64,000 nt of DNA, from positions 2,540,100 through 2,604,099 of the forward strand of contig NZ_CM001837.1 of assembly GCF_000355805.1 (NCBI RefSeq). The letters are read 5' to 3'. Origin of the DNA: Dokdonia sp. PRO95. Its GTDB lineage: Bacteria; Bacteroidota; Bacteroidia; Flavobacteriales; Flavobacteriaceae. A program made the position numbers and the translations under genes. The notes under the pieces were generated by a model. It had not been told where the DNA came from. It did not search any database and saw only the letters and a list, made by a program, of their open reading frames with translations. This document shows positions 7,429 through 64,000 of the stretch, piece after piece (the stretch's first letter is position 1; each line of letters starts with the position of its first letter).

Positions 7429-7442
7429 GCTTTCGCGAAAGC
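7429..7442. repeat. GCTTTCGCGAAAGC palindrome, intergenic copy
   Basis: An exact copy within the 370-bp gap between the divergent sensor kinase and the CHAT-like gene. Apart from this palindrome and an isolated TAATTTTG (7602-7609, a possible -7 element for the rightward gene) I see nothing else in the gap. Confidence 0.9.
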
Positions 7443-7674
7443 GTAAAAAATCCATATTAAATTCTTTGAAATTGTAGCTTTAGTTGCAATATAATGGATT
7501 ACACCACTTTAATCATCCATTAAAAAATCAATCTTTAAATGTATTGGATAACTACACAGTTTTGAGACCATTTTTAACAGTGGAGAGGGGGTATTTTGAT
7601 TTAATTTTGCAGGTAATATTACTATTCAAAAATCATCATAAACTGATTTGTAAATAGTAAATAAAGAGTTATGA

Positions 7675-8268
7675 ATGAATAGTCAAGAGCAGATAATACC
7701 CTCAATAGCAGCAGAAAAATTTATCTATTGTCTAGAGGCCGTTCCAGATGTTGATCAGGAGGTAGCCACAGAAGTGATGACAACACTTGAAGATATTGCT
7801 CTAAAACAAGGAATCGCAAGTATTTACAAGACCTGCGACACCATTGAGGGGCTAGAGGAAAGTTTAAATACGCTGGTGTATGATGACCATAATTTTAAAG
7901 ATTATGAACTCATCTACCTCATAATGCCAGGCCAAGCTAACAATATTATGCTCAATGATTATTACTATAGCATTGAAGAAATTGCCGAAATATTTGAAGG
8001 AAGAATGACAGGTAAAATCATCCATTTTTCCAATAAAAAAGCACTCGACTTAACTGACGAAGAATCGCAATATTTTCTTGACGTAACTGGTGCTCGTGCA
8101 ATCTCTGGCTATGGATCTAGCAATAATACATTATCGAGCACAGAAACGATAGATAGAGTGTTTTTTAATATGTTTCAAGAGAATGAAGATTTTAAAGAAG
8201 TGGTAGAAGAGATGTTTCAAAAACATTACAAACTCTGTAAACTACTTGATTTTAGATTGTATTATTAA
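7675..8268 (+). CDS. DUF6642/CHAT-like protein without recognisable catalytic residues
   Basis: A 197-residue soluble protein. The order of elements recalls small CHAT-fold (caspase-like) proteins of the DUF6642 type, from memory: EKFIYCLEAVP at the start, a Tyr/Leu-rich strand YELIYLIMPGQ (about 83-93), YYSIEEIAEIFEGRMTGKIIHFS, then DVTGARAISGYGS. In active relatives the first strand ends in HG and the second in GSC. Here those places read MPGQ and FSNKK, so the His-Cys dyad appears lost. No signal peptide or membrane segment. There is no operon partner. The family call is moderate; the absence of the dyad is read directly. Confidence 0.55.
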   Translation: MNSQEQIIPSIAAEKFIYCLEAVPDVDQEVATEVMTTLEDIALKQGIASIYKTCDTIEGLEESLNTLVYDDHNFKDYELIYLIMPGQANNIMLNDYYYSIEEIAEIFEGRMTGKIIHFSNKKALDLTDEESQYFLDVTGARAISGYGSSNNTLSSTETIDRVFFNMFQENEDFKEVVEEMFQKHYKLCKLLDFRLYY

Positions 8269-8299
8269 TCGTTAATTGAGGAAGAGTTTTGTGGAATAC

Positions 8300-8313
8300 G
8301 CTTTCGCGAAAGT
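8300..8313. repeat. Palindrome copy, one mismatch (GCTTTCGCGAAAGT)
   Basis: Lies 31 bp after the stop of the CHAT-like gene, between converging genes. The core TTTCGCGAAA is intact. Confidence 0.8.
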
Positions 8314-9654: not shown

Positions 9655-9672
9655 ATATATATAGAAATGTTC

Positions 9673-14175: not shown

Positions 14176-17136
14176 ATGTTCTTTAAAAAATTACTTGTCT
14201 TTGGGCTAGTAAGCTGCTCATTTACGATGTATGGGCAAGATTACTTTCCAGCAAACGCTGGAGTCAAGTCCAAAAACCAAAATTACACGGTGTTCACAAA
14301 CGCCACCATCCACAAAACTCCCACAGAAACCATTAAAAATGGAACACTTGTAGTGCAAGATGGAAAAGTGGTCTCTGTAGGCAAATCTTCATCATACGCT
14401 CAAAATGCTATTGTTGTAGATCTTAATGGTAAACATGTCTATCCATCTTTTGTAGACATCTATACTAATTTTGGTATCGATAAGCCTAAGCGTGCAGGAG
14501 GATCTGGACGTGCTTCACAATATGATAACTCTCGCGAGGGAGCTTACTGGAATGACCATATCTTATCTGAGCAAGATGGCTATCAAGATTTTAAGTACGA
14601 TTCAAAAAAAGCAACCGAATATCTTGAGGCTGGTTTTGGCGTAGTTGCAACACATCAACACGATGGTATTGCACGTGGTACAGGAGCGCTTATCGCACTT
14701 AATAATGATGGAAATACTGCAAACCGCGTGATAGAAGATCGCCTTGGTCAGTATTTCTCATTTGATAAGAGTGTAACCTCACGCCAGTCATACCCATCTT
14801 CTAAAATGGGGGCAACAGCATTATTACGCCAGTTGCAGCATGATTTAGACTGGTATGAGAAAGGAAATATAGACACTAAGGATCTTTCTTTAGAGGCGCT
14901 TTCGCGAAACAAAGGGCTTCCGCAGTTTTTTGAAGGTGATGGCTTATATGATGATCTTCGTATAGATAAACTAGGTGACCAGTTTGGTATCGACTACGTA
15001 ATTATTGCCGGTGGTGATGAGTATAAACGTATCGGAGAAGTTAAGGCGATGAATCGTAAGATGATTCTCCCACTTAAATTTCCAGATGCCTACGATATGG
15101 AAAATCCATACGCTGCCGAATATGTAGCGCTTTCTGATATGAAACATTGGAATCAAGCACCTACAAACCCTAAAGCATTACAAGATGCAGGAGTAACATT
15201 TGCACTTACTACATTCTCACATAAATCTCCCAAAGATTTTAAAGGCCATTTGATGAAAGCAATCAAATATGGTCTTTCTAAGCAAAGAGCCTTAGAAGCA
15301 CTTACTACAATTCCAGCAACAATGATTGGAAAGAGCGGTGAGCTTGGAGTACTTAAATCAGGTGCGTGGGCAAACTTCATGATTACTTCTGGAGAGGTTT
15401 TTGAAAAAGACACAGAGCTTTATGAGCACTGGATTCAAGGTAACAAAACGGTAATCAAGGATATGAACACAGTTAATATTGACGGTGTTTATACAATGAA
15501 TATTAGTGGAGCTACTTATGAGCTAGAGATTAAAAACGCGTTAGAAAAAGCAAAAGCATCTCTTAAAAAGGGAACAGAAGATGTAAAAAGTGAATTTTCT
15601 TATAAGGATGAATGGGTAACAGTAACGTTCCCTCAAAGCGAAGGAAAATTTGTACGTCTTGTAGCAAGAGCATCTGCAGATGGTCTAAGCGGCAAAGCAA
15701 TTCTTGCAGATGGTTCTGAGAAAAACTTTACTTCTACTAAGAAAGCACTAGCTAAGAGTGGTGATAAAGACGATAAGAAAGAAGAGGATAAACCTCTTAC
15801 GGTAATGCCACTTACCTTTCCTAATATGGCTTTTGGTTTTGAGACAAGACCAACACAGCAAGATATCCTAATCACCAATGCCACTGTGTGGACAAATGAA
15901 GCAGAAGGTATTCTTGAAAACACTGATCTCTTAATAAAAGATGGGAAAATCAGCGCAGTTGGTAAAAACCTTTCTGCTCGCGGAGCTATGGTTGTAGATG
16001 GTACTGGTAAGCATGTTACTTCTGGTATTATAGATGAGCACTCTCACATTGCTGCATTTGCAATCAACGAGTCTGGTCACAACTCTACGGCAGAGGTTCG
16101 CATGAGTGATGTAGTGAACCCAGACGATTCTGATATTTATCGCAATCTTGCTGGTGGAGTTACAGCTATTCAATTATTACACGGATCTGCAAATCCTATT
16201 GGAGGACAGAGTGCAGTAATGAAATTAAAGTGGGGAGCGCCTATCGATGAGATGGTAATTGCAAATAAGAAATTTATCAAATTTGCTTTGGGTGAAAACG
16301 TAAAGCAAGCAAACTGGAATAGCTTCTCAAGATTCCCACAAACGAGAATGGGAGTAGAGCAAGTATTTGTGGACTACTTTACAAGAGCAAAAGAATACGA
16401 AGCAAAGAAAAAGAGCGGTCAGCCATATCGTATGGATGAGGAGATGGAAACTATTGTAGACATCCTTAATATGGATCGTTTAATTTCTTGTCACTCTTAT
16501 GTACAAAGTGAAATAAATATGACCATGAAAGTTGCAGAGCAGTTTGGCTTCCATATCAATACGTTCACACATATACTTGAAGGTTATAAAGTTGCAGATA
16601 AAATGGCCGAACACGGTGTAGGAGGATCAACATTCTCAGACTGGTGGGCTTACAAATATGAGGTGAATGATGCTATTCCTTATAATGCAGCAATCATGCA
16701 TAGAGCAGGAGTAACCGTTGCTATCAACTCTGATGATGGTGAGATGTCAAGACGTCTTAATCAAGAAGCTGCAAAAATTCATAAGTACGGTGGTATTTCT
16801 GAAGAGGATGCATGGAAAATGGTAACTCTTAATCCAGCAAAACTATTACACATGGATGATCGCGCAGGTAGTTTGAAGCCTGGTAAAGATGGAGATGTTG
16901 TGATATGGACAGATCATCCTCTTAGTATTAAAGCGAGAGCAGAGAAAACGATTATTGAAGGAAAAGTATTTTTCGATATGAAAAAAGACGAAGAACTTCG
17001 TAAAACAGTGCAACGTGAGAAAGCACAACTTACTGCAATGATGCTTGCAGAAAAGAATAAAGGCTTACAAACGCAACCTGCCAAAAAGAAAGAAAAACAA
17101 CGTATGCATTGTGATACAGAACAAACACTTTACTAA
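14176..17136 (+). CDS. Secreted tandem amidohydrolase (986 aa), N-terminal half degenerate
   Basis: A signal peptide (about 1-20, ending SCSFTMYGQ) precedes two amidohydrolase-superfamily halves. The C-terminal half (about 560-960) is intact: the metal-binding HxH is in GIIDEHSHIA, followed by CHSY, NTFTHILEG and the late Asp in INSDDGE, so it is probably a metal-dependent imidazolonepropionase/dipeptidase-like hydrolase. In the N-terminal half the same place reads VYPSFVDIYTNFG with no HxH, though the C-terminal part of the fold (TTIPATMIGKSGELGVLKSG) is kept. One base separates it from a second amidohydrolase gene, so they form an operon. A near-copy of the dispersed palindrome (14898-14911) encodes ALSRN. 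Confidence 0.88.
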   Translation: MFFKKLLVFGLVSCSFTMYGQDYFPANAGVKSKNQNYTVFTNATIHKTPTETIKNGTLVVQDGKVVSVGKSSSYAQNAIVVDLNGKHVYPSFVDIYTNFGIDKPKRAGGSGRASQYDNSREGAYWNDHILSEQDGYQDFKYDSKKATEYLEAGFGVVATHQHDGIARGTGALIALNNDGNTANRVIEDRLGQYFSFDKSVTSRQSYPSSKMGATALLRQLQHDLDWYEKGNIDTKDLSLEALSRNKGLPQFFEGDGLYDDLRIDKLGDQFGIDYVIIAGGDEYKRIGEVKAMNRKMILPLKFPDAYDMENPYAAEYVALSDMKHWNQAPTNPKALQDAGVTFALTTFSHKSPKDFKGHLMKAIKYGLSKQRALEALTTIPATMIGKSGELGVLKSGAWANFMITSGEVFEKDTELYEHWIQGNKTVIKDMNTVNIDGVYTMNISGATYELEIKNALEKAKASLKKGTEDVKSEFSYKDEWVTVTFPQSEGKFVRLVARASADGLSGKAILADGSEKNFTSTKKALAKSGDKDDKKEEDKPLTVMPLTFPNMAFGFETRPTQQDILITNATVWTNEAEGILENTDLLIKDGKISAVGKNLSARGAMVVDGTGKHVTSGIIDEHSHIAAFAINESGHNSTAEVRMSDVVNPDDSDIYRNLAGGVTAIQLLHGSANPIGGQSAVMKLKWGAPIDEMVIANKKFIKFALGENVKQANWNSFSRFPQTRMGVEQVFVDYFTRAKEYEAKKKSGQPYRMDEEMETIVDILNMDRLISCHSYVQSEINMTMKVAEQFGFHINTFTHILEGYKVADKMAEHGVGGSTFSDWWAYKYEVNDAIPYNAAIMHRAGVTVAINSDDGEMSRRLNQEAAKIHKYGGISEEDAWKMVTLNPAKLLHMDDRAGSLKPGKDGDVVIWTDHPLSIKARAEKTIIEGKVFFDMKKDEELRKTVQREKAQLTAMMLAEKNKGLQTQPAKKKEKQRMHCDTEQTLY

Positions 17137-18503: not shown

Positions 18504-19475
18504 CTATTTAATCACTTGACAACCTCCACCAGAAATTCGGCTAGAGTAGCTGTCTACTTGAAGTCCATTACGTTCATAAAGTGCGGTACTTTCAGATAGG
18601 TATTTATCTATGTCCGCTTTCGCGAAAGCGAGACAAAACATACTAGGTCCGCTGCCAGAAATACCAAAGGCTATGCATCCATTCTGTTGAGAAATAGCTT
18701 TAATCTCATCAAAATGCGGAATCAATTGCTTGCGATGTGGCTCTACGAGTACATCTTTAATACTTTCCTTAAATAATTCCTTATCCCATTCATAGAGCGA
18801 GGCAACAAAGCCTGCCAGATGTTGCGATTGTGCAATGGCATCCTTGAGAGGCACGTGCGTGGGTAAAATCTCTCTTGCTTCTTTAGTTTTTATGGTAATA
18901 TGCGGGTGTAAAATCCCAACGTAAACTGTATCCATGGGAGGTAAGGCAATTACCTTAAATGGGTTGTAGCCAGTAACGAGCGTGGTACCTCCATAAATGC
19001 AAGGTGCCACATTATCTGCATGCTCATTACCACTTGCCAGTGCTTCGCCTTTCATGGCGTAGCGCGTGAGTTCAAGATTAGATAATGGCTTTTCTAAAAA
19101 CTGATTGATACCATACACAGCCCCTGCTGCGCTTGCACTGCTGCTGCCTATTCCAGAACCGGAGCGTATTTTTTTATGAATCTCTATTTCAACTCCAAAA
19201 TCTGCATTAATACCTTCTAGCATGGCATTACCCGCGACACCGGCTACATTTTTGTGAGCTTCCATAGGGAGCGTATCACCTGTGATTTCTGTAATCGTTA
19301 CTCCGCGACCTTCGGTTTTTCTAAAAACCATTTCATCACCTATACCTTCGAGTGCAAAGCCTAGCGAATCAAAACCGCAGTTTACATTTGCCACTGTAGC
19401 GGGACAAAATACGCGTATCGCCGTAGGATTAGCAAGGCTTTGTACCGTGGCTTTTTTATTTATTTCTTGAGACAT
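18504..19475 (-). CDS. thrB: Homoserine kinase
   Basis: Phosphorylates homoserine for threonine synthesis. A 323-residue GHMP kinase: FCPATVANVNCGFDSLGFAL near the start, the phosphate-binding RSGSGIGSSSASAAG (about 106-120), and the GHMP C-terminal GISGSGPSMFCLA. It follows thrA by only 7 bp, so it is translated from the same message. thrC does not follow; the next gene converges from the other side. An exact palindrome copy (18616-18629) is read in frame as AFAKAD, just after the GHMP C-terminal motif. Confidence 0.97.
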   Translation of the reverse strand: MSQEINKKATVQSLANPTAIRVFCPATVANVNCGFDSLGFALEGIGDEMVFRKTEGRGVTITEITGDTLPMEAHKNVAGVAGNAMLEGINADFGVEIEIHKKIRSGSGIGSSSASAAGAVYGINQFLEKPLSNLELTRYAMKGEALASGNEHADNVAPCIYGGTTLVTGYNPFKVIALPPMDTVYVGILHPHITIKTKEAREILPTHVPLKDAIAQSQHLAGFVASLYEWDKELFKESIKDVLVEPHRKQLIPHFDEIKAISQQNGCIAFGISGSGPSMFCLAFAKADIDKYLSESTALYERNGLQVDSYSSRISGGGCQVIK

Positions 19476-19482
19476 ATAATTA

Positions 19483-21918
19483 TTATCTAAGTCTTATGAT
19501 ATCGCTGAAGAGTCCGCTGGCAGTAACATCTCCTCCTGCACCTGCACCTTTTACAATTAGCGGCTGCTCTGGGTAGCGTGCCGTGTAAAATAAAACAATA
19601 TTGTCAGACCCTTCAAGGTTGTAAAACGGACTGTCTGCACCTACAGACTGTAAGCCTACACTTGCTTTGCCATTATCCAACTGTGCTACATATTTAAGGC
19701 GTTTTCCTGCTGCTGTAGCATCGGCAACTAGTTTTTCAAAGTGTGCTGCATCTTCTTTAAGTGTTTCAAAGAAGTGAGGAACGTCTGTGCTTTCTAGATT
19801 GTTTTTGGTTAAAAAAGGTGAGTTTACAATATCTTCTAGCTCTAATTCAAGTCCGCTTTCTCTTGCGAGTATAAGAATTTTACGTGCCACATCTACACCA
19901 CTTAAATCAATACGAGGATCTGGCTCTGTGTAGCCTTCTTCTTTGGCTTGTTGTACTACATCATAAAAGCTATCACCGCTTTTAAAGTTATTAAAAACAA
20001 AGTTGAGACTACCAGAAAGTACCGCTTGTACTTTAGTAATACTATCACCAGACGCGATAAGGTTCTGTAAAGTGTCTATTATAGGTAAACCAGCACCTAC
20101 GTTGGTTTCAAACTTAAATGGAGCATTATATTTTCTGCTTAATCGTTTAAGGTTTGCATAGTATTCTTGTTTTCCAGCGGCAGCAATTTTATTACATGCA
20201 ACCACTGCGATGCTATTTCTCAAGTATTCTTCATATGCCATTGCTACGGGTTCATTTGCCGTAATATCTACAAATACTGAGTTGCGCTGGTTGAGAGCGA
20301 TTACGTTTTCGCGAAAGCGAACAATATCTGCCTTCTCACCTTGTGCAAGCGCTTCTTCCCAATTATCTAAATCAATAGCTTGTTCTGAGACGAGCATCTT
20401 GCGACTGTTTGAAAGTCCTAGAACTCTTATATTAAGGTTGAGATGGTCTTTCAGATATTTTTTCTGACTATTAATTTGATCAAGGAGTTTTGCTCCCACA
20501 TTTCCTACACCAGTAATGAAGAGATTAATTTGCTTTCTGTTTCCTTCAAAGAAAACTTCATGCAGGCTGTTAAGCGCTTTTTTTACATCCTTCTCGGCAA
20601 TTACTGCAGAGATATTTTTCTCACTCGCTCCTTGTGCAATGGCCCGTATATTCACGTTGTTTTTACCAAGTGTGGAGAACATTTTACCAGAAATCCCTTG
20701 ATGACTTTTCATAGATTCTCCTACGAGTGCAATAATGGCAAGAGAAGTCTCGACAATCACCGGATCAATCTTACGTAGTGATAGCTCGTAAGCAAACTCT
20801 GTTTCTATTGCTGTTTTTGCACGCAAGGCATCAGCCTCCATCACACCGATACAGATGCTATGTTCGCTAGAAGCCTGTGTAATAAGGATCACATTTATTT
20901 GCTGTAAAGAGAGTACTTCAAAAAGGCGTTTTGAAATTCCAGAAATTCCCACCATTCCTGCGCCTTCCAGAGTGAGTAGTGCAACATCACTTATATGAGA
21001 GATTCCCTTAATAGGGTTTCCATTGCTTCCTTCTTGCTGTCCTATGCGAGTTCCAGCTTCATCTGGAGCCATCGTATTTTTGATATAAATAGGAATGTTT
21101 TTACTAAGCGCAGGCACGATAGTAGGAGGGTAGAGCACCTTTGCTCCAAAATGCGATAACTCCATCGCCTCGTGATATGATATGTCACGTATAGGTTTTG
21201 CCTGTTTTACAAGCTTCGGGTTTGCAGAGAACATCCCACTCACATCTGTCCATATTTCAAGTTGGTCGACTTCCAGCGCAGCTGCAATTATAGCCGCAGT
21301 AAAATCTGAGCCACCACGACCTAGTGTACTTGTTTCTCCCGTAGCAGTACTCGCAATAAATCCTCCTAGAATGGTGATGTTTTGTGACGCTTTCGCGAAA
21401 AATTCCTTGATATTTTCATTAGTGCGATCATACAATACACTGGCTTTGGTATGATTACCATCGGTAATGATAAGTTGTCTACTATCTTTTAATGTGGCTT
21501 CAATCCCTTTATGGTTGAAGGCTGCTGTTATGATACGGCTGCTGGTAAGCTCTCCAAAAGCAGCGAGTTTGTCTAGTGTTTTAGGTGAAAGCTCGTTGAT
21601 TAAAAAAATACCCTTGAGTAAGTCGTCTAAGTGCGACATAAGTGCACTTATATCTGCCATTACTATAGCATCACCTTCGGTAAGTGCTTTTGCAAAAGCC
21701 GTGTGTTTTTGGTGTATTTCTAAAAATACATCCTTATAAGTTTCGTCTTTTTGAGCAGCAAGCGTTCCGGCCTTTAGTAATAAATCTGTAATTCCACCCA
21801 CTGCCGAAACAACAACAGCTACTGGATGTGAAGCTGCTTGATGGTTTACAATAGCGATTACTTTTTCTATGTTTTTAACACTCCCCACAGAAGTGCCTCC
21901 AAATTTTAATATGCGCAT
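19483..21918 (-). CDS. thrA: Bifunctional aspartokinase / homoserine dehydrogenase
   Basis: Catalyses the first and third steps of threonine synthesis. The aspartokinase domain occupies about 1-290 (MRILKFGGTSVGS; GRGGSDFTAAIIA). Two ACT regulatory segments lie at about 310-450 (LEGAGMVGISGI; VGESMKSHQGISGK), and the homoserine dehydrogenase domain runs from about 460 (FITGVGNVGAKLLDQ). I choose ATG at 21918 because homologues begin at the KFGGTS strand; an ATG three codons upstream (21927) is also possible. Two palindrome copies lie inside it: 20305-20318 (RFREN) and 21389-21402 (FFAKAS). Expression is probably set by the leader peptide upstream. Confidence 0.97.
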   Translation of the reverse strand: MRILKFGGTSVGSVKNIEKVIAIVNHQAASHPVAVVVSAVGGITDLLLKAGTLAAQKDETYKDVFLEIHQKHTAFAKALTEGDAIVMADISALMSHLDDLLKGIFLINELSPKTLDKLAAFGELTSSRIITAAFNHKGIEATLKDSRQLIITDGNHTKASVLYDRTNENIKEFFAKASQNITILGGFIASTATGETSTLGRGGSDFTAAIIAAALEVDQLEIWTDVSGMFSANPKLVKQAKPIRDISYHEAMELSHFGAKVLYPPTIVPALSKNIPIYIKNTMAPDEAGTRIGQQEGSNGNPIKGISHISDVALLTLEGAGMVGISGISKRLFEVLSLQQINVILITQASSEHSICIGVMEADALRAKTAIETEFAYELSLRKIDPVIVETSLAIIALVGESMKSHQGISGKMFSTLGKNNVNIRAIAQGASEKNISAVIAEKDVKKALNSLHEVFFEGNRKQINLFITGVGNVGAKLLDQINSQKKYLKDHLNLNIRVLGLSNSRKMLVSEQAIDLDNWEEALAQGEKADIVRFRENVIALNQRNSVFVDITANEPVAMAYEEYLRNSIAVVACNKIAAAGKQEYYANLKRLSRKYNAPFKFETNVGAGLPIIDTLQNLIASGDSITKVQAVLSGSLNFVFNNFKSGDSFYDVVQQAKEEGYTEPDPRIDLSGVDVARKILILARESGLELELEDIVNSPFLTKNNLESTDVPHFFETLKEDAAHFEKLVADATAAGKRLKYVAQLDNGKASVGLQSVGADSPFYNLEGSDNIVLFYTARYPEQPLIVKGAGAGGDVTASGLFSDIIRLR

Positions 21919-21932
21919 AGTATGCAATTTTA

Positions 21933-23861: not shown

Positions 23862-23881
23862 GACATACATCATAAAATAAT

Positions 23882-23913
23882 AAAAGGGATAGCGCACTAG
23901 CGCTATCCCTTTT
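23882..23913. terminator. Bidirectional terminator after nnr
   Basis: A perfect 14-bp stem, AAAAGGGATAGCGC and its complement, with an ACTA loop and T-rich flank. It also serves the converging lipoprotein gene. Confidence 0.9.
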
Positions 23914-23939
23914 ATTATTAAAAGTATACTTACTTTACA

Positions 23940-24517: not shown

Positions 24518-24531
24518 GCTTTCGCGAAAGC
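24518..24531. repeat. GCTTTCGCGAAAGC palindrome, intergenic copy
   Basis: An exact copy lying 6 bp after the stop of the TonB receptor gene and 17 bp before the lipoprotein gene in the same operon. Confidence 0.9.
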
Positions 24532-48894: not shown

Positions 48895-48988
48895 AATGCA
48901 ATTATTTTAGACAATTTACTCTTTCCTTAATACAGTATTGCAACTCTATAAATTGATGGCTAATTTAGTAACTCAGCAAAATGAACAT

Positions 48989-49672
48989 ATGACTTCTTCG
49001 ATACCTAAATCTACTTTATCTTTTCTTGAATCATTACGTGAGAATAATTCGCGTGAGTGGATGACAGAGCATAAGAAAGAGTACCAAGCTAGTGAGAAAG
49101 CCTTAAAGCAGGTTTATGCATCTATAGTGAATGGACTTAATGAAACTGACGAAATTGAAAAACTCAAAGTGTTTCGTATCAATAGGGATGTAAGGTTTAG
49201 TAATGATAAAACACCTTACAACGTGCATCGCTCAGCAAGCTTTAGTAGGGCTGGAGCACACCGTCGTGGTGGGTATTATCTGAGAATTGAGCCCGGTAAT
49301 AAATCTGCAATAGCAGGCGGCTTTTTTAATCCAGAACCAGCAGATTTAAAGCGCATACGCACAGAATTTCATCTAGATGCTAGTGAGATACGTGAGATAC
49401 TCTCAGATATCGCTTTCGCGAAAGCGTTTGGTGGCTCATTTGAGACACGGAATGCGGTTAAGACAGCACCTAGGGGCTTTGACGTAAATGATCCCAATAT
49501 TGATCTCATAAGACTTAAAAACTTTGTAGTTAGGAAGAATTTTACAGACAAAGAAATCACCTCTCCAGATTTTACGAAGATTGCTTTAAATCACTTCAGA
49601 CTACTGCGACCTTTTTTTGATTATATGAGTGATGTATTGACAACTGATCTCAACGGGGAGTCATTACTTTAG
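48989..49672 (+). CDS. DUF2461 domain protein
   Basis: 227 residues from ATG 48989 (MTSSIPKST). ATG 48956 would add 11 residues; the family usually starts right before FLxxLxxNNxRxW, so I use the shorter. Core motifs are SFLESLRENNSREWMTEHKKEY, LKVFRINRDVRFSNDKTPYNVHRSASF, RRGGYYLRIEPGNKSAIAGGFF and the C-terminal FTDKEITSPDF. Function unknown. An exact palindrome copy (49412-49425) encodes IAFAKAF. Confidence 0.88.
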   Translation: MTSSIPKSTLSFLESLRENNSREWMTEHKKEYQASEKALKQVYASIVNGLNETDEIEKLKVFRINRDVRFSNDKTPYNVHRSASFSRAGAHRRGGYYLRIEPGNKSAIAGGFFNPEPADLKRIRTEFHLDASEIREILSDIAFAKAFGGSFETRNAVKTAPRGFDVNDPNIDLIRLKNFVVRKNFTDKEITSPDFTKIALNHFRLLRPFFDYMSDVLTTDLNGESLL

Positions 49673-52638: not shown

Positions 52639-53103
52639 TTAATCAACTTGATGTTCGTTATCAGTATTTGAAGAAATCTCAGGGCTTTCGCCTAAATTGT
52701 GTTTTTCAAGACCAGCAGAGTCTACTTCAATAAATTGCATTGCCTGTGATGGTGTTGTAATCTGCTTTGCTCTTGTTCCTTGTATGAGTATAGGGTTTTG
52801 TATCGCATTTGGATTATTCTGTATAAATTTAATCCAGTGATCATCACTCATAGTTGCATCTTTTACAAAATTATCAACCTCAGGATGATCTTTAGAAACG
52901 AGTTCATTTATACTCACTCCTAGTAAATCTGCCACTTCACTCCACTGCGTTCCCGTAAGTCCTGCATCTGAGATGTTGATTAAATTTAATTTTGCATCGC
53001 TACTTTTTGCATAACCAAGCGTCTGTTTTGCAATACTTGATTCAGAAGAGTAGATTACTATTAATTCGTTATTGTCTGTTGCTAGTGTCATATCAGTTGG
53101 CAT
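52639..53103 (-). CDS. ArsC-like thioredoxin-fold protein without the catalytic cysteine
   Basis: 154 residues. ELIVIYSSESSIAKQTLGYAKSSDAKLNLINIS has the strand-loop-helix of ArsC/Spx proteins, but the Cys of 'NP.C..SR' is replaced by Ser and there is no Cys in the protein. The rest follows ArsC order: VADLLGVSINELVSKDHP, W..FIQNNPNAIQNPILIQGTRAKQI. The polar tail (EISSNTDNEHQVD) is disordered. It is the last gene of a minus-strand unit, 11 bp after hpf and 94 bp away from mscS. A structural or partner-binding role seems more likely than reduction. Confidence 0.75.
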   Translation of the reverse strand: MPTDMTLATDNNELIVIYSSESSIAKQTLGYAKSSDAKLNLINISDAGLTGTQWSEVADLLGVSINELVSKDHPEVDNFVKDATMSDDHWIKFIQNNPNAIQNPILIQGTRAKQITTPSQAMQFIEVDSAGLEKHNLGESPEISSNTDNEHQVD

Positions 53104-53114: not shown

Positions 53115-53420
53115 TTAGTGGTGAGACTGCATCTTTTCTTTCTTTTTTCTGAGTTGGCGGTCTACTTCATTTATCGCTTCTTTTAACGAAGGATAAAAAT
53201 CGTCTGAGCTATGTTCGGCAAATAGCCTTGGACCAGGCATACTTATTTGTACTCCCGCTATTTTTCCAGTTTCATCACTTGAAGTGTTTTCGGTTTTGAA
53301 GAAAACATCTGCTCTGTGAGCAAATTGATATTTATCTCCTAATTTTTTTAATTCCGCTTTCGCGAAAGCTTCTAATTCTGCACTTGCAGTTACATCGTGG
53401 TATTCAAATATTACTTCCAT
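53115..53420 (-). CDS. raiA: Ribosome hibernation/translation inhibitor (HPF/RaiA, short form)
   Basis: 101 residues with the S30AE fold: MEVIFEYHDVTASAELEAFAKAELKKLGDKY, a VFFKTENT strand, VQISMPGPRLFAEHSSDDFYPSLKEAINEVDRQLRKKKEK. No C-terminal dimer domain, so the short HPF/YfiA class that binds 30S ribosomes in stress. It lies 27 bp after mscS. An exact palindrome copy (53356-53369) encodes EAFAKAE in helix 1. Confidence 0.9.
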   Translation of the reverse strand: MEVIFEYHDVTASAELEAFAKAELKKLGDKYQFAHRADVFFKTENTSSDETGKIAGVQISMPGPRLFAEHSSDDFYPSLKEAINEVDRQLRKKKEKMQSHH

Positions 53421-53447: not shown

Positions 53448-54347
53448 TTATTTGTCAGAAAACTGACGAAGGCTAAGTGGAAATTCTTTCGCACCGCCAT
53501 AGAGTTTAATTTCTTGTATATCTGCCGGCATGTAATATCCAGCATCTTCTAATGCTTCTTTTACATTACGCACCACATTTCCTTTTGTAATTAGTGCTTG
53601 TTTTCTAAAGTCCTTAGTATCTACCCAAAAGAAAACTTTTAAGTTTACAGTACTTGTTGCAAGCTCATCTTCAATAACAAAGTTTTCATGTATATCGTCG
53701 TTAATAACGCTAGATTCTTTGGCTAATGCTTCTAGTACTGTCTCTTTTGCTCCCTCTATATTATCTTCATAAGCTATTCCAATGATAAAATCCCATCTGA
53801 AAAAGCCGTCCTCTGTGTAATTTGTGACAGGTTCGGTAAGCACATCACTATTGGGTATGTAAACATCTTTACCATCAAAGGTTTTTAACTTTGTGTACCT
53901 AAGATCGAGGGTTTTTACTTTACCGAAATTTGAACCTATTTCAACAGTATCGTCAACATCAAAGGGTCTATTAAAAGCAAGAATAATTCCTGCAATAAAA
54001 TTTTCGCCAATATCTTTAAAAGCAAATCCCAAGACAACAGCACTAGCTCCTGCTGCTGTAAGTATTCCGGCTGCTATACCTCCTAGACCTGCAGCTCTAA
54101 GTGCAAGCATTATTGCGATTATTATAAAGGTGTATCTTATGGCTGTTCCTAGAAATTTACTCATCAAAGGATCTTCTGTTCTAGCAGAAATTCTTTTTCT
54201 AGCAAATCGACCTATCCATCCAGCTATTAAAACTCCTAAAACCACGATAAGAATACCCATCGCAATCTGCGGGAGTTGATCTATAAAGTCGCTCACAGAA
54301 TTTTGAAATGCTTCTGTAATGGTTGTTTTTGTACTTTGTAAGGGCAT
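53448..54347 (-). CDS. mscS: Small-conductance mechanosensitive channel
   Basis: 299 residues. Three membrane helices (about 27-48, 68-88, 92-115) with the pore-lining TM3 signature LRAAGLGGIAAGILTAAGASAVVLGFAFKDIGENFIAG, then the MscS beta domain (GSNFGKVKTLDLRYTKLKTFDGKDVYIPNSDV) and the alpha/beta C-terminal domain. It is the first gene of a three-gene unit with raiA and the ArsC-like gene, which suggests an osmotic or growth-arrest response. Confidence 0.95.
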   Translation of the reverse strand: MPLQSTKTTITEAFQNSVSDFIDQLPQIAMGILIVVLGVLIAGWIGRFARKRISARTEDPLMSKFLGTAIRYTFIIIAIMLALRAAGLGGIAAGILTAAGASAVVLGFAFKDIGENFIAGIILAFNRPFDVDDTVEIGSNFGKVKTLDLRYTKLKTFDGKDVYIPNSDVLTEPVTNYTEDGFFRWDFIIGIAYEDNIEGAKETVLEALAKESSVINDDIHENFVIEDELATSTVNLKVFFWVDTKDFRKQALITKGNVVRNVKEALEDAGYYMPADIQEIKLYGGAKEFPLSLRQFSDK

Positions 54348-54509: not shown

Positions 54510-55865
54510 ATGAATATAGTATCTACAAATCCGTATGACGGAACAGAAATAGCCAAAATAAAAGCCCTTAACTTAAAAGAGATAGAAGATAAAATTGAAA
54601 ATGCACAACAAACCTTTCTTTCTTGGCGTAATACCACTTTTGCAGAGCGTTCGGAACATCTTAACAATGTGGCAAAGGAATTAAGAAAGAATGCTCGAGA
54701 ATATGCAGAAACAATGACTAAGGAAATGGGTAAGCCCATTACACAAGCCATTGCCGAAGTAGAAAAGTGTGCTTGGGTATGTGACTATTATGCAGAAAAT
54801 GCACCATCACAACTAGCACCTAAAGAGATAAAAACAGATGCTTCAAAAAGTTATGTGAGATACGAACCTATAGGTGTTGTACTTGCCGTAATGCCGTGGA
54901 ATTACCCATTCTGGCAAGTCTTTAGATTCATTGCTCCAGCTCTGATGGCAGGTAATATAGGTGTGTTAAAGCACGCGAGTAATGTTATGCAAAGTGCAGA
55001 AAATATTCAAAAAGTGTTTGAACGAGCAGGACTTCCTAAGGGGTGTTTTCAAAACATGGCCGTAGGCAGTGAGCGTATAGAAAATATCGTTCGAGATTCT
55101 CGTATTAAGGCAATAACACTTACTGGTAGTAAGCCAGCAGGAGCAGCGGTAGCAAGTACAGCAGCAAGCGAAATTAAAAAATCTGTCCTCGAGCTTGGAG
55201 GTAGTAATGCACTCGTAGTTTTTGACGATTGCAATTTTGAGGAGACGGTACAAACGTGTGTACAAGCGCGTTTTCAAAATACAGGGCAGAGCTGTATCGC
55301 TGGTAAAAGACTCATCATCCATGAAGGTATTAAAGACAAGTTTTTAGATGCTTTCGCGAAAGCGGTGACAGAATTAAAATCTGGTGACCCTATGGATGAA
55401 GATACCTATATTGGAGTAATGGCTCGTGAAGACCTTGCCGAAGAGTTAGAAGACCAACTAAATAAATCAATTGCCGAAGGAGCAAAAATATTAATAGGTG
55501 GGCACAGACAGAAGGCTTATTTTGAGCCAACGATAGTTACAGGAGTGACACCAGAGATGACAATATTTAAAGAAGAAACCTTTGGGCCTGTAATAGGAGT
55601 CACCGCATTTAAAACTGACGAAGAAGCGTTGAATCTAGTAAATCAATCTGATTTTGGTTTAGGCGTATCTATTTTTACAGAGAGTGAAGAACGCATGGAG
55701 ACCTTAATACCGCAGTTTGAAGATGGTGCTGTATTTGTAAATGATATGGTCAAGAGTAACCCTAACCTTCCTTTTGGAGGTACAAAAATTTCGGGATACG
55801 GTCGCGAACTCTCCATAGATGGTATTCAAGAGTTTGTAAATAAAAAGACGGTATATATTAAATAA
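54510..55865 (+). CDS. Aldehyde dehydrogenase (succinate-semialdehyde dehydrogenase-like)
   Basis: 451 residues, NAD(P)-dependent. PWNYPFWQVFRFIAPALMAGN cofactor strand, general base E228 in VLELGGSNA, nucleophile C262 in NTGQSCIAGKR, and FGGTKISGYGRELS at the C-terminus. Close to GabD/Sad proteins that oxidise succinate semialdehyde; no GABA transaminase is nearby, so the substrate is a guess. An exact palindrome (55350-55363) encodes DAFAKAV; another lies just after the stop. Confidence 0.92.
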   Translation: MNIVSTNPYDGTEIAKIKALNLKEIEDKIENAQQTFLSWRNTTFAERSEHLNNVAKELRKNAREYAETMTKEMGKPITQAIAEVEKCAWVCDYYAENAPSQLAPKEIKTDASKSYVRYEPIGVVLAVMPWNYPFWQVFRFIAPALMAGNIGVLKHASNVMQSAENIQKVFERAGLPKGCFQNMAVGSERIENIVRDSRIKAITLTGSKPAGAAVASTAASEIKKSVLELGGSNALVVFDDCNFEETVQTCVQARFQNTGQSCIAGKRLIIHEGIKDKFLDAFAKAVTELKSGDPMDEDTYIGVMAREDLAEELEDQLNKSIAEGAKILIGGHRQKAYFEPTIVTGVTPEMTIFKEETFGPVIGVTAFKTDEEALNLVNQSDFGLGVSIFTESEERMETLIPQFEDGAVFVNDMVKSNPNLPFGGTKISGYGRELSIDGIQEFVNKKTVYIK

Positions 55866-55871: not shown

Positions 55872-55885
55872 GCTTTCGCGAAAGC
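55872..55885. repeat. GCTTTCGCGAAAGC palindrome, intergenic copy
   Basis: An exact copy 6 bp after the stop of the aldehyde dehydrogenase gene, directly before its terminator; the next 325 bp to 56256 hold no gene. Confidence 0.9.
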
Positions 55886-58252: not shown

Positions 58253-58266
58253 ACTTTCGCGAAAGC
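58253..58266. repeat. Palindrome copy, one mismatch (ACTTTCGCGAAAGC)
   Basis: Lies 6 bp after the stop of purB, next to the bidirectional terminator. Confidence 0.8.
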
Positions 58267-59693: not shown

Positions 59694-61034
59694 TTATAAT
59701 AGGCCTCTTGCTTTAATTTCTAGATATTTATTAATAGTACTTACCGTGAGATCATCTGGCTTGGTTAATATGGTTTGAATACCGTATTGTTCAAGTCGTG
59801 CAACCATTACTTTTTTATCAAGATCTGCTTTTTGGGCAATCGTTTTATGATACACCTCTGGAAGTGTTTCGGCAGGTGTTGCAATAAGCTGATCGAGTTC
59901 CGTGTTTTGGAAAAAGATAACTACCAAGACATGTTTTCGCGAAAGCGCTTTTAAATAAGGCAACTGTCTTTCAAGCGCAGTTAGGTGCTCAAAATTTGTA
60001 TACAATAGTAGTAAGCTGCGCTGTGTGATTTTACGTTTTACTTGGTTGTATAACGCACCATAATCACTGTCTAAAAACTTAGTGTCAATATTGTAAAGCA
60101 CCTCTAGAATAGTCTGCAGGTGCGTTTTCTTACTACTCGCAGGAAGGTGATTTTTAATAGTCTCTGCAAAGGTGAGCATGCCCACTTTGTCTTTTTTCTT
60201 TAGAGCAATATTTGAAAATGCAAGCGTACTGTTAATCGCATAATCTAATAGCGTCAGGCCTTTAAAAGGCATCTTCATCACGCGGCTAGCATCTATGAGC
60301 GCATATACAGGTTGCGACTTCTCGTCTTGAAACTGATTTACCATAAGGCTCGCACGCTTTGCCGTTGCTTTCCAGTTAATAGTACGTGCATCATCACCAG
60401 GGACGTAGTCTTTAATTTGCTCAAACTCCATCGTGTGTCCCAGGCGGCGTATTTTTTTCATGCCGTGCATAGTAAGTCTATTATCTAGGGCAAGAAATGC
60501 ATACTTTTTCATCTGGATAAAAGATGGGTACACCTTTACCATCTGATCTTTTTCAAAGCGGTAGCGACGTTTTACAAGTTTGAGCTTTGTGCTCACGTAC
60601 ACATTGAGATGCCCAAAGGTGTACTCACCACGCTCTGTAGGACGCAAAGAATATACAAATGACCTTGTTTCTCGTGCTGGTATCTCAATTACTTTACTAA
60701 AATCACGTTTTTGAAACTGCTCTGGTATTTCGTCTATAATATCAAGCGTAACTGCAAATGGGTATTTATTCTCAAGAACTACAGGAAGCTCGTTTGCATC
60801 ACTGTTTGAGAATTTTTCTGGAAGCTCTCTTACACCTCTAATTTTTCCGCTTGCGCGAAAAAGAACTAATGCATCCACAAAAAATGCGAGTACCAGTACT
60901 AGTAGTAAGATATTAGTAATTCCAAAAAGGCTATTAAACCAATAGGAAATTAAATAAAGCACACCTATAAATGCCAGCGCATAGAATAAACGCTGGTGAA
61001 CAAAAAAACCTTTTATAAATTTTATAATAGCCAC
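59694..61034 (-). CDS. DUF58 domain protein (vWA-like)
   Basis: 446 residues. Two N-terminal membrane helices (about 15-55), a beta-rich region and the DUF58 block (about 190-350: RRLGHTMEFEQIKDYVPGDDARTINWKATAKR, then ALIDASRVM, the MIDAS-like DxSxxM). Such proteins work with MoxR ATPases as vWA partners. 2 bp separate it from the moxR gene. A near-palindrome (59933-59946) encodes LSRK. Confidence 0.92.
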   Translation of the reverse strand: MAIIKFIKGFFVHQRLFYALAFIGVLYLISYWFNSLFGITNILLLVLVLAFFVDALVLFRASGKIRGVRELPEKFSNSDANELPVVLENKYPFAVTLDIIDEIPEQFQKRDFSKVIEIPARETRSFVYSLRPTERGEYTFGHLNVYVSTKLKLVKRRYRFEKDQMVKVYPSFIQMKKYAFLALDNRLTMHGMKKIRRLGHTMEFEQIKDYVPGDDARTINWKATAKRASLMVNQFQDEKSQPVYALIDASRVMKMPFKGLTLLDYAINSTLAFSNIALKKKDKVGMLTFAETIKNHLPASSKKTHLQTILEVLYNIDTKFLDSDYGALYNQVKRKITQRSLLLLYTNFEHLTALERQLPYLKALSRKHVLVVIFFQNTELDQLIATPAETLPEVYHKTIAQKADLDKKVMVARLEQYGIQTILTKPDDLTVSTINKYLEIKARGLL

Positions 61035-61036
61035 TC

Positions 61037-62104
61037 TTAACGTGGTATTTCTACAGATTGAACAATCATGTCGATGACTTGCTCTGTGGTCATTCCTTCC
61101 ATTTCACGCTCTGGAGCGAGTATAAGGCGGTGACGCATTACTGGTATAACCGCACGTTTTACATCTTCTGGAATTACAAAATCTCTACCTGCAATGGCAG
61201 CAAATGCTTTTGAAGCATTCATAATTGCTAGTGAGGCACGAGGAGATCCTCCAAGGTATAAATGTGGGTGCGTTCTAGATTTTACAACAATCTCTGCAAC
61301 GTAGTTTAAAATTTTCTCTTCTATAAGTACTTCTTGCGTTTGCTTTCTAAAATCTGCTAGTTTTACAGGATTAAGTACGGCCTCAATACCTTTTTGTGGG
61401 GCACCACCTTTACGGTCATGATGGTTCTGCAGTATAGCAACTTCTTGTTCTAGCGTAGGGTAATCTACTTTGATTTTAAATAGAAAACGGTCTAGTTGTG
61501 CCTCTGGTAGTGCATATGTACCTTCTTGCTCTACTGGGTTTTGAGTTGCTAGCACCATAAAAGGAGGTTCCATAGTATACTTTGTACCATCTATAGTAAT
61601 CTGGCGCTCTTCCATAGATTCAAAAAGTGCAGCTTGTGTTTTAGCTGGTGCACGGTTAATCTCATCTATAAGAACAATGTTTGAAAATATAGGACCTTTC
61701 TTGAATTCGAATTCGCTAGTTTTCATATTGAGAATCGAAGTTCCTAATACGTCACTTGGCATCAAGTCTGGTGTAAACTGTATACGTCCAAACTGTGTAT
61801 CAAGAGTTTTTGCAAATAACTTTGCAGTTACTGTCTTTGCGATACCAGGAACTCCCTCGATGAGTACGTGACCGTCAGAAAGTAAAGCCACAATGAGGAG
61901 CTCTATAAATTCGTGTTGCCCAATTATAATTTTACCAAGCTCTGCCCGTATTGCTTCGGCGGCATTGCGCAGTTCTTCTAATGGAATCCTGTTAGTAAAC
62001 GCGATTCCTTCATCTGTTTGATTTACATCTTGCGATGGAGTTGGAGTAGCATTAGTGGTTCCATCTGTTGTATTTTCTGGATCTTGTGGTGTGATATCGT
62101 CCAT
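61037..62104 (-). CDS. MoxR-family AAA+ ATPase
   Basis: 355 residues. Walker A GVPGIAKTVTAK (about 80-92), Walker B VLIDEINRAPAKTQ, sensor 1 VLATQNPVEQEGTYALPEAQLDRFLFK and the C-terminal lid. Low-complexity Thr/Pro/Asp N-tail (about 1-35). The MoxR proteins act as chaperones with vWA-domain partners, here the DUF58 protein 2 bp after it. Its start codon overlaps the stop of the DUF4350 gene by one base. Confidence 0.94.
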   Translation of the reverse strand: MDDITPQDPENTTDGTTNATPTPSQDVNQTDEGIAFTNRIPLEELRNAAEAIRAELGKIIIGQHEFIELLIVALLSDGHVLIEGVPGIAKTVTAKLFAKTLDTQFGRIQFTPDLMPSDVLGTSILNMKTSEFEFKKGPIFSNIVLIDEINRAPAKTQAALFESMEERQITIDGTKYTMEPPFMVLATQNPVEQEGTYALPEAQLDRFLFKIKVDYPTLEQEVAILQNHHDRKGGAPQKGIEAVLNPVKLADFRKQTQEVLIEEKILNYVAEIVVKSRTHPHLYLGGSPRASLAIMNASKAFAAIAGRDFVIPEDVKRAVIPVMRHRLILAPEREMEGMTTEQVIDMIVQSVEIPR

Positions 62105-63321
62105 TATTTTTGATTTTTAAATGCTTCTATGCGTTTATTAAGTTCTAATAATTCTTCCTGACTTATAATTTGCTTAGCTCTTAAAGCCACCATATAATTA
62201 ATCAATGATTTAGTCTGTTCTAGTGTATTGTCACTTTTAGATGCTAGCTTATTGATAAAACCTTCATTAATCACATTTGTATCAAGCGCATAATTACTGC
62301 GTATGAACTCTAGAAAATGACTTATTTGATGGCTCACGATGCTCTTGTGATCTTTCTTATCAAGATACATTCCCGCAATGGTCTTTGTAAATGTGAGTGT
62401 CTGGTTAGGTAGCGGTTTTATAATAGGGATGGCTCGCTGCTTGCGCCTTCCTTCAAAAACCACCCATAAAAAAGCACCTATAAGTAGGATGTAATATGCC
62501 CACTTCAAATATCTATTTTGAAAGAATATATACAACGGACTTGTATAAATAGTTTTACCATTCTTATAGTGATTATCCCAGTAGAGCACATCATCTTGAT
62601 CTAGATACGAGAGTACATTTTTTGTGTATGTATAATTATCCTCTCTTAGTATAAAATAGTTAGTAAACGTCTCAGGCATAAGATGGATGACAATCTCACC
62701 TTTGCCAAAATCTTGTTTAACAAAATTTATTCTAGGTTCTGCTACAGTTATGGTGTCTTTATTAACCATAAGGCCAAATTCTCCTAAGGCAACCGTATTT
62801 GTGGTATCTACCTCTTCAAAAAAGCCAGCGGTAGTCTCAACGTCATGATAATATGGAGTTTCTCTACGTAAGCTTGGGTTTACAAGATTTACAAGTGGCT
62901 TGCGCTCAAAATTATCATAATCATAATAGAGATCAGTTTCTAGAGACAAGGTATCTAGTATAGTCTCTCCAATGCCTCTCGCTGCAATAAATAGCGTGTT
63001 ACCCTCACTTACCCATGATAAAAGTTTGAGTGATTCATCTTCACTAAAAAGGATGTAATCATTTACAAACAAATATGTACCATGCGCATCCGTACTATCT
63101 GACATAAATTCATAAGGAGGTATGCGCACTTCCTTAAATTTATCCTCTTGCCAGTTATTTTCTAGTAGGTCATGTAACACATACGTTCCGTAAGGGATTT
63201 TATCTGTCTTTGTATAACTAGGATACCAGTTTATATCTTCCTTAGTACTTGACTCCATATAAATAACGAGTGCAAGAGCAAGTAGCAGCACACCAGCAAT
63301 TACTTTAAACTTATTGCTCAT
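62104..63321 (-). CDS. DUF4350 family membrane protein
   Basis: 405 residues. One N-terminal helix (about 6-22, VIAGVLLLALALVIYM), a large periplasmic domain with GATase-like strands (LLSWVSEGNTLFIAARGIGE) and a second helix (about 272-290, WAYYILLIGAFLWVVFEGRR) followed by a charged cytosolic tail. It is found in bat/aerotolerance-like operons with MoxR and DUF4129 proteins. It overlaps the neighbours by 1 and 4 bases. Confidence 0.88.
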   Translation of the reverse strand: MSNKFKVIAGVLLLALALVIYMESSTKEDINWYPSYTKTDKIPYGTYVLHDLLENNWQEDKFKEVRIPPYEFMSDSTDAHGTYLFVNDYILFSEDESLKLLSWVSEGNTLFIAARGIGETILDTLSLETDLYYDYDNFERKPLVNLVNPSLRRETPYYHDVETTAGFFEEVDTTNTVALGEFGLMVNKDTITVAEPRINFVKQDFGKGEIVIHLMPETFTNYFILREDNYTYTKNVLSYLDQDDVLYWDNHYKNGKTIYTSPLYIFFQNRYLKWAYYILLIGAFLWVVFEGRRKQRAIPIIKPLPNQTLTFTKTIAGMYLDKKDHKSIVSHQISHFLEFIRSNYALDTNVINEGFINKLASKSDNTLEQTKSLINYMVALRAKQIISQEELLELNKRIEAFKNQK

Positions 63322-64000
63322 AGCTGATTATTTATTTGGGTGAAAGAGGTTTTTGCTTTCGCGAAAGCGGTCTCATCGACCTCAAAATTTCCATACCAGA
63401 TATAGTCGTAAATATCTGTCACTTTTCTGAACTGGCTTCTTAAACTAAGGTCTTCTATTTCAGACAAATAGTCATGATTTGTCTTTTGTACTTGCCAGTC
63501 TATAAGATCTTGTTCACTCATTTTCTGAAGTATACGTAGATAATAAAAACGCACAGCTAGTCTATAATTACCAGCAGCAATTGCCTGCTCAATGAGTTGG
63601 TCTAAATCTTGTCGCTGTATCAGTTCTTCATCATCTGATAGTAAGGTCTCAGGAGCTTTTATTTTTTCCATTAATAAGGAACCGCTATCTATTTTCATAA
63701 ATAGCCATACAAAGAACACTAGTAAAGCTACGATGAGTATGTAGGGTAGTAGCTCTACTATAACTGCCCAAAAACCCGTAGCCTCGTTGCCACCAGTGAG
63801 CCAGCGTATGAACGCGTTATATAGATCGTTAATTTTTCTTTTAAAACGTGACCACCAAGTATCTTCTGGAGTCGCTTCTTTATAATTGAACTCATCGTCT
63901 TGTTTATATTTATCAAGACTATTTTCAGAGATGGGTAGCGGTGTTAGTTTTTCGTTGTCATAAGTGACAATACCACGAGGATCGTGATAGGTGTTTTCGG
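63318..64000 (-). CDS. DUF4129-like membrane protein (partial, runs off right edge)
   Basis: 227 codons are visible and the frame is still open at 64000, so the N-terminus is outside. The visible part has a region with RGIVTYDNEKLTPLPISEN and EDTWWSRFKRKINDLYNAF, one membrane helix (about WAVIVELLPYILIVALLVFF, coded near 63705-63770) and the C-terminal DUF4129 domain with DLDQLIEQAIAAGNYRLAVRFYYLRIL. A GTG at 63717-63719 lies within the helix and is not the start. An exact palindrome (63355-63368) encodes TAFAKAK near the C-terminus. It overlaps DUF4350 by 4 bases. Confidence 0.85.
   Translation of the reverse strand, partial: ENTYHDPRGIVTYDNEKLTPLPISENSLDKYKQDDEFNYKEATPEDTWWSRFKRKINDLYNAFIRWLTGGNEATGFWAVIVELLPYILIVALLVFFVWLFMKIDSGSLLMEKIKAPETLLSDDEELIQRQDLDQLIEQAIAAGNYRLAVRFYYLRILQKMSEQDLIDWQVQKTNHDYLSEIEDLSLRSQFRKVTDIYDYIWYGNFEVDETAFAKAKTSFTQINNQL

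Follow-up and report, generated by a model that had tools for sequence, protein, structure and literature searches.

A long palindrome conserved at about 800 dispersed sites in Dokdonia, with a possible role in marking the cell's own DNA

The palindrome in the window and on the chromosome

The stretch of DNA analysed here (the window, 64 kb) belongs to the Dokdonia-type genome of Dokdonia sp. PRO95 (3,305,093 bases, one contig) and carries dispersed copies of one perfect palindrome, the 14-mer GCTTTCGCGAAAGC. A sequence-only reading of the window had listed 15 exact copies and seven copies with one or two mismatches, and all were found at the positions it gave. The core TTTCGCGAAA is intact in 22 of these 22 copies, as that reading had it, and nine of the 15 exact copies extend to the 16-mer that it described for many of them. 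A pattern scan returned 25 places within two mismatches of the motif, while dinucleotide shuffles of the window gave 0.11 on average and 2 at most, and none of 100 shuffles reached 25. The three places beyond the 22 listed (21686, 29767 and 47963) have a broken core. The variant CCTTTCGCGTAAGC is present twice, at 29767 and 47963; near 47963 a Nonlabens-type genome has a full site, in a weak alignment of doubtful orthology.

The enrichment extends beyond the window and is not local. The exact 14-mer occurs 794 times in the genome and the reversed control pattern not once, so that both a genome-wide excess and enrichment outside the window were found and neither of the conditions that the sequence-only reading named as refuting holds. 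The motif-free first 7.4 kb of the window was seen again but is not special, since gaps between the first 100 sites of the genome average 4.3 kb and some are 10–15 kb long.

The sites are spaced more evenly than expected. Over this run of 100 sites the coefficient of variation (CV) of the gaps is 0.67 (0.99 expected), and two of 99 gaps are shorter than 1 kb (20.5 expected); the related genome G299 behaves similarly (gap CV 0.74; four of 99 gaps below 1 kb, 22.8 expected). An arrangement around the origin and terminus, which the sequence-only reading had put forward for checking, was not borne out: density varies from 1 to 8 sites per 20 kb over 21 sampled stretches and follows neither position nor GC skew. 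Of 214 sites, 98 lie between genes, in DNA that is 86% coding, and 116 inside open reading frames (ORFs, taken throughout as a simple longest-ORF set). The reading A-F-A-K-A is found in 72 of the 116 ORF sites, several of them at apparent signal-peptide ends. The intergenic sites often follow a stop codon closely (less than 50 nt in 26 of 36 listed distances).

Anatomy of the site

In 863.6 kb of the genome there are 257 core sites, flanked by GC on both sides in 208 cases and on one side in 49; none has it on neither side. The intergenic consensus is TTAC-GCTTTCGCGAAAGC-GTAA, close to the 22-bp palindrome TTACGCTTTCGCGAAAGCGTAA. On the 5′ side of either strand C is scarce, and T and G are abundant, out to about position −19; most Dokdonia and Nonlabens samples, though not G304, tolerate a C at −8. 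Phage and island copies show broadly the same flank trend, and genome G190 a weaker one. The left and right flanks have the same base preference and no covariation beyond composition (212 pooled Dokdonia sites, largest z 1.7), a pattern of two equal readers rather than of a hairpin. Since the flanks lack covariation and 49 of 257 core sites are one-armed, base pairing is not what is kept, and selection for a hairpin was rejected.

In motif-rich chromosomes there are 54 one-mismatch variants beside 399 exact copies (ratio 0.14), 40 with the mismatch in an outer position and 14 in the core. Outside the motif the inner palindrome TTCGCGAA is not over-represented (6 found, 9.8 expected) and TCGCGA is found 166 times (104 expected, both strands). 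With these shorter palindromes barely or not enriched on their own, the long site is the unit that is kept. Half-sites outside the palindrome are somewhat enriched: the 9-mer GCGAAAGCG occurs 12 times (2.5 expected) and GCGAAAGC 24 times (15.4 expected).

Conservation and turnover

Aligned exact sites are identical in 46 of 50 cases across four relatives, compared with 24–29% of all aligned 14-mers at about 85% overall identity (the distant G304, where one of two was kept, is left out of this figure). Codons within sites are identical in 103 of 104 cases, whereas 61 would be expected from the same codons elsewhere. Identity is 94–100% over the 14 bp of the site and 76–91% over the adjoining 5–19 bp. 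Within 60 bp of sites in G313 ORFs it is 0.74–0.80, below that farther away (0.86); this drop is not seen in G303 or G301 ORFs and is reversed, with higher identity near the sites, in G313 intergenic DNA. The individual sites of the window are collected in Table 1.

Table 1. Copies of the palindrome in the window, with their conservation in relatives G303, G301, G313, G299 and G304 where alignable
Position	Site and location	State in relatives
7429–7442	Exact, intergenic	Exact in G303 and G301; unaligned in the other three
8300–8313	One-arm GCTTTCGCGAAAGT, intergenic	G303 and G301 keep the core
14898–14911	One-arm GCTTTCGCGAAACA, ORF 14176–17136	Core kept in G303, G301 and G304; broken in G313 and G299
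18616–18629	Exact, ORF 18504–19475	Exact in 4 of 4 aligned
20305–20318	One-arm GTTTTCGCGAAAGC, ORF 19483–21927	Core in 4 of 4 aligned; full palindrome in G299
21389–21402	One-arm GCTTTCGCGAAAAA, ORF 19483–21927	Kept in G303 and G301; absent in G313 and G299
24518–24531	Exact, 37-bp gap between 24500 and 24538	Exact in 5 of 5, including G304 (75% overall identity)
27082–27095	Exact, between ORFs ending at 26934 and starting at 27309; overlapped by a doubtful 110-aa ORF	Exact in 4 of 5; the fifth keeps the core
32177–32190	Exact, ORF 31366–32457	Exact in 4 of 4 ungapped alignments; G304 gapped
34954–34967	Exact, ORF 34314–35069	Exact in 4 of 4
36524–36537	Exact, intergenic	Exact in 3 of 4; one core mismatch in G301
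40287–40300	Exact, intergenic	Exact in 4 of 4
44564–44577	One-arm GCTTTCGCGAAAAC, ORF 43682–44923	Kept in G303 and G301
44862–44875	Exact, ORF 43682–44923 (S41 peptidase domain protein, Pfam)	Exact in 3 of 3
46478–46491	Exact, ORF 45953–46756	Exact in G313 and G303; one arm in G301; G314 site at about the same position in a 65%-identity block
49412–49425	Exact, ORF 48938–49672	Exact in 3 of 3; common to G190 (another genus)
53356–53369	Exact, between ORFs 52639–53103 and 53448–54347; overlapped by a doubtful 101-aa ORF	Exact in 3 of 3
55350–55363	Exact, ORF 54510–55865	Exact in 3 of 3
55872–55885	Exact, 6 nt past the stop of ORF 54510–55865	Exact in G313; one arm in G303; core mismatch in G301
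58253–58266	One-arm ACTTTCGCGAAAGC, intergenic	Full palindrome in G313, G303 and G301
59933–59946	One-arm GTTTTCGCGAAAGC, ORF 59694–61034	Core in 3 of 3; full palindrome in G313 and, at the same place, G314
63355–63368	Exact, ORF 63318–63719	Exact in G303 and G301; same-context site in G314 and G190 (another genus)

Sites are gained and lost by point change in place. In 11 comparisons, which cover six distinct window positions, a site of a relative is missing from the window; eight of them show no length change and none of these 11 alignable cases shows insertion of a 14–22-bp unit, while 24 further sites of relatives could not be aligned and are not judged. A self-copying short repeat, one of the roles first considered, is thereby set aside. 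The earlier phrase 'active selection or spread' holds for its first half, as selection or an equivalent drive, given conservation at orthologous positions far above background; spread finds no counterpart, as no unit insertion was seen.

Core mismatches number 14 beside 399 exact copies in motif-rich chromosomes and 23 beside 84 exact copies in island pieces of motif-poor hosts (described below). The difference has a Fisher p of 1e-8, an optimistic value in that related genomes and related islands are pooled and G190 is omitted. With core mismatches rare in rich hosts and common in poor ones, upkeep of the site looks host-dependent.

Elsewhere in the window, an imperfect inverted repeat of about 44 bp lies between two convergent ORFs at approximately 23876–23919. 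It matches itself on the reverse strand, is also present in two relatives and is perhaps a terminator hairpin.

Distribution among genomes

All 18 genomes of the window's genus carry between 369 and 905 exact copies. A survey of 299 genomes of the family found five rich genomes (PRO95 with 794, G206 with 857, G010 with 578, G242 with 664 and G190 with 408), three genomes with 16–19 copies and 0–9 copies in the remainder; in 395 genomes of the phylum the maximum, PRO95 apart, is six. Both surveys give positions for the first places of each genome only. In the surveyed genomes the motif is confined to three marine flavobacterial genera that have motif-poor relatives. Motif-rich samples range from 35 to 46% GC, so base composition is not the cause of the enrichment.

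In a set of 80 named loci from the aconitase region, only three Dokdonia and two Nonlabens loci contain exact copies, and no other genus shows a recurrent palindrome of similar kind with a GC core. Four of these loci (L207, L217, L235 and L242) contain an AT-rich 10-mer palindrome three times. The aconitase of G206 is identical to that of Dokdonia sinensis, and the one of G010 to that of an uncultured Nonlabens. In the aconitase tree, which rests on one protein, has several weak forks and does not hold the window's genus as one group, G190 branches apart from these, close to Leeuwenhoekiella and Zunongwangia; beside the main Dokdonia branch stand Marinirhabdus and Patiriisocius, neither of them motif-rich. 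Orthologous sites in 20 kb of window sequence number three of five in G314 of the same genus (59933, 63355 and 46478), one of ten in G242 (55872) and two of seven in G190 (63355 and 49412). The counterpart of site 55872 in the Nonlabens-type G242 also lies soon past an apparent stop. Either the system is ancient and has been lost many times, or it has passed from one lineage to another.

Phages and mobile islands

The motif is also carried by viruses: 15 of 19 viral contigs examined hold 2–7 exact copies, some of the contigs being copies of one phage. One motif-bearing contig encodes portal, terminase, head, sheath and baseplate proteins and is a tailed phage, and one contig of a motif-bearing related group encodes an integrase. 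Between related viral contigs at 68–72% identity four of six aligned sites are kept, compared with at most 2% of 14-mers, and at 88% identity four of four are kept against a background of 53%. Related phage contigs (L081, L392, L105, L063 and kin) carry the motif at conserved positions. The complete Nonlabens phages P12024S and P12024L, whose host genome is outside the genomes compared, have no site in 35.7 kb each, where 6–7 would be expected at 17–20 per 100 kb. Named phages and plasmids gave only chance matches in unrelated hosts, with a 30-base query that is insensitive to bare 14-mers.

In several motif-poor genomes the few copies are clustered. All 16 copies of G076 fall within 78 kb, and 18 of 19 copies in G287 and 16 of 17 in G051 lie on two contigs. 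Not all low-count genomes show clusters, which speaks against islands as the whole explanation: G144 has nine copies over six contigs, and scattered copies that no island explains are seen there and, one to four each, in several other genomes (e.g. G338, G476 and G526). The G076 block (L364–L369, G076:C3 at about 31–116 kb) is a mobile island of about 85 kb, with approximate borders, in a marine flavobacterium. It encodes a large serine recombinase, a Zot-like ATPase, a Strawberry-notch helicase, an N6 methylase, MksE (adjoined by a JetD-like match below the cut-off) and RND metal efflux proteins.

Island sites are often better kept than other 14-mers. Related efflux operons (nine pieces from seven genomes, with three further island pieces having no aligned site) keep 20 of 33 aligned sites at 72–77% identity, compared with 1–5% of 14-mers, a count that still includes protein constraint inside the efflux genes. 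The G051 island keeps 11 of 14 sites at 87–88% identity (background 23–24%). In the close pair G076/G287, nine of 11 are kept at 98% identity, no better than the background of 84%, and four of five at 92% (background 40%). A motif pair exactly 933 bp apart recurs in a 405-aa efflux-operon gene of several motif-poor genera (L277, L278, L281 and L282 in G078, G215, G087 and G101).

We infer from islands seen in motif-poor hosts only that their sites were inherited from motif-rich hosts and then decay, although the islands may themselves maintain them. A reader encoded by the elements was set aside, since at 98% identity the G076/G287 sites are no better kept than background and core mismatches are frequent in these hosts. 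A comparison of island proteins with 1.70 Mb of mostly motif-host sequence, including one phage record, gave a few weak or RND-type matches and no convincing shared reader. Nor are the clusters of several low-count relatives parS-like origin clusters: they are islands with RND efflux genes and do not lie at the origin. A motif cluster in a motif-poor genome suggests DNA from a motif-rich host and may mark gene transfer.

Discussion

Taken together with its distribution, the upkeep of the site suggests some reader protein, perhaps for recognising the cell's own DNA; the reading protein was not found in this analysis. Two of the roles first proposed for the palindrome, a DNA-uptake signal and a chromosome-organising site, survive, while the self-copying repeat and the 5-methylcytosine (5mC) methylase site find no support.

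The reading that we tentatively favour is a palindromic self-DNA uptake or recombination signal maintained by molecular drive. A sequence-specific host protein, probably a symmetric dimer, would read the double-stranded site. DNA long resident in motif-rich hosts, such as phages and islands, would acquire it, and copies moved elsewhere would decay. Fragments carrying the site would be preferentially taken up or recombined, and an intact site would overwrite a mutated one, which is molecular drive. Drive would account for each of about 800 individually dispensable sites, many between genes, staying intact; a second site close by would add nothing, which matches the avoidance below about 1 kb. 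Drive by uptake or recombination may be the best explanation for this clean upkeep of redundant sites and their mutual repulsion below 1 kb, but we hold it with limited confidence.

Known uptake sequences are 9–12 nt long, and the DNA uptake sequence (DUS) of Neisseria is read by a pilus protein. The DUS and the uptake signal sequences of Pasteurellaceae resemble the present motif in their hundreds to thousands of copies, conservation above their surroundings, extragenic enrichment and even spacing, as described in two studies (PMC2397512, PMC1939737). The first gives 97% identity for neisserial DUS against 85%, places 58–66% of them outside genes, and reports a spacing near conversion-fragment size, a pair of very close motifs having no advantage over a single one (PMC2397512); the second describes uptake sequences as evenly spaced (PMC1939737). 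Closer to Dokdonia, a transposon screen for competence in Riemerella anatipestifer yielded ComEC, DprA, ComF and RecA along with proteins unrelated to known machinery (PMC8459023), and R. columbina is described as preferring its own DNA (PMC7965970).

Several points weigh against this reading. The whole palindrome is the unit here, with 208 of 257 core sites two-armed, whereas the uptake sequences treated in PMC1939737 are not palindromes. An uptake bias has been demonstrated for DUS; for the present motif it is a prediction. The motif is also purer: for the DUS 10-mer PMC2397512 lists 562–818 one-mismatch copies beside 1,888–2,245 exact ones (0.25–0.43), against 0.14 here. Flavobacterium johnsoniae is reported in PMC7965970 as not competent under conditions in which R. 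columbina was, and no sign of Dokdonia competence was found in the open-access literature. The pilus/type II ATPase family PF00437 exceeds the cut-off in only three of ten motif-rich genomes, PRO95 not among them, and in none of 14 others. With this ATPase missing from seven of the ten, a pilus route of the Neisseria or Haemophilus type cannot be general; uptake may follow other flavobacterial routes. Evidence for 'permissive positions' is mixed, as the lower identity near sites is confined to G313 ORFs. The viral contigs come without host assignment, only one phage contig has an integrase, and the stay of the islands in motif-rich hosts is one that we infer. Many of the patterns would be expected from drive and from direct selection alike, and the two are not separable here.

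The three motif-rich genomes with PF00437 have a pilus/type II secretion-like locus (L403, L404 and L405 in G304, G314 and G242), found in none of the 14 others. These loci have an ATPase, a secretin and a prepilin peptidase, with a T2SSF protein in G242; that of G314 is available as sequence with its genes unannotated. In G304 the pilin beside the ATPase narrowly misses the ComP_DUS cut-off (27.1 against 27.3 bits), which is a lead, but PRO95 lacks the ATPase.

Because the site is symmetric, a dimeric DNA-binding protein and a chromosome-organising role are kept close, and the latter, though on balance doubtful, is the main rival, close behind the uptake or recombination signal. A dimeric nucleoid or condensin-associated protein would hold or pace the chromosome through one palindrome per about 4 kb, and phages and islands would adopt the site on being packed in the same nucleoid. 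Perfect symmetry agrees with this, as do flank preferences that reach about 19 bp and are equal without covariation (two identical subunits, one half each), and so does even spacing at 1–8 sites per 20 kb without trend. However, losing one of 800 redundant sites should be near neutral, yet core mismatches are rare (14 beside 399 exact), and there is no origin or terminus trend in the 21 stretches, unlike for MatP, SlmA and Noc. The sites matS and parS and those of SlmA and Noc are palindromes of similar length read by dimers, in tens of copies with regional bias, and parS and Noc sites share TTTC...GAAA half-sites; the present motif has about 800 sites, no regional trend in the samples and one ParB. 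An extra ParB as reader was rejected, PF02195 having a single match in each of ten motif-rich genomes, and four parS-like patterns had no match in 464 kb of the genome. No chromosome-organising protein of this kind was identified.

A two-way hotspot similar to Chi, at which a RecBCD/AddAB-type enzyme would be regulated from either side of an orientation-free palindrome and the G/T-rich 5′ flank would serve as a RecA loading sequence, is improbable. The density is near that of Escherichia coli Chi (about 1,008 copies, one per 4.6 kb), the composition beside the site is skewed (T/G-rich and C-poor 5′ on both strands), and the half-sites are somewhat enriched. Known Chi, however, is short, asymmetric and polar and is read single-stranded; sufficiency of a half-site is weak, with 12–24 half-sites beside 257 core sites. 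The two complete Nonlabens phages have no site, although a self mark would benefit such phages most.

Still less probable is a by-product of a methylase and repair system, as in Elhai's model for the highly iterated palindrome (HIP) HIP1 of cyanobacteria. HIP1 (GCGATCGC) and the alternate HIPs are likewise perfect palindromes of very high copy number, without a settled function and near absent in some relatives, and one-mismatch variants concentrate at outer positions there as here (40 outer, 14 core), according to PMC4390886. The inner palindromes CGCG, TCGCGA and TTCGCGAA could be methylase targets. The present motif differs in length (14–22 bp against 8–10 nt), in density (about 240 against 1,000–2,000 per Mb, again from PMC4390886) and in occurring in Bacteroidota. 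A HIP would be expected to come with a methylase for part of its sequence in each genome; the 5mC family PF00145 is found in four of ten motif-rich and nine of 14 other genomes, which shows no link to this family, and outside the motif TTCGCGAA (6 against 9.8) and TCGCGA (166 against 104) are little help.

A self-copying repeat like the repetitive extragenic palindromes (REPs) and bacterial interspersed mosaic elements, or a terminator hairpin, is highly improbable: the motif is palindromic, has hundreds of copies and often closely follows stop codons, but REPs are extragenic and 116 of 214 sites here are in ORFs, alignable gains and losses are substitutions in place with no copying seen (a REP transposase was not sought), the flanks do not covary, and 49 of the 257 core sites are one-armed.

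Possible, if short of probable, is the wider proposal that an undescribed host protein recognises a palindrome as long as 22 bp at some 800 evenly spaced sites and imposes this address, directly or by drive, on resident DNA including phages and islands. This would be self-marking or chromosome-pacing, unlike HIP1 and DUS in form.

The sequence-only reading knew of no established name for the motif, and the open-access literature agrees, subscription journals being outside its scope. The 14-mer GCTTTCGCGAAAGC appears in no paper searched there, for the 10-mer no paper title on this subject was among the matches listed, and the listings for Dokdonia or Nonlabens palindromes, Dokdonia transformation and flavobacterial uptake sequences gave nothing on the motif.

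Highly iterated palindromes have lacked an explanation since HIP1, and the present motif is longer and sharper. Its confinement to three genera with motif-poor relatives means that the reading protein can be fished for directly, and the choice between selection, drive and methylation becomes testable with motif-rich and motif-poor relatives. To our knowledge, two bacterial groups with uptake signals are known; if the uptake signal is true, these flavobacteria would be a third, and one that probably manages without type IV pili. Clustered copies of the motif might also be used as a fingerprint of DNA from a motif-rich host.

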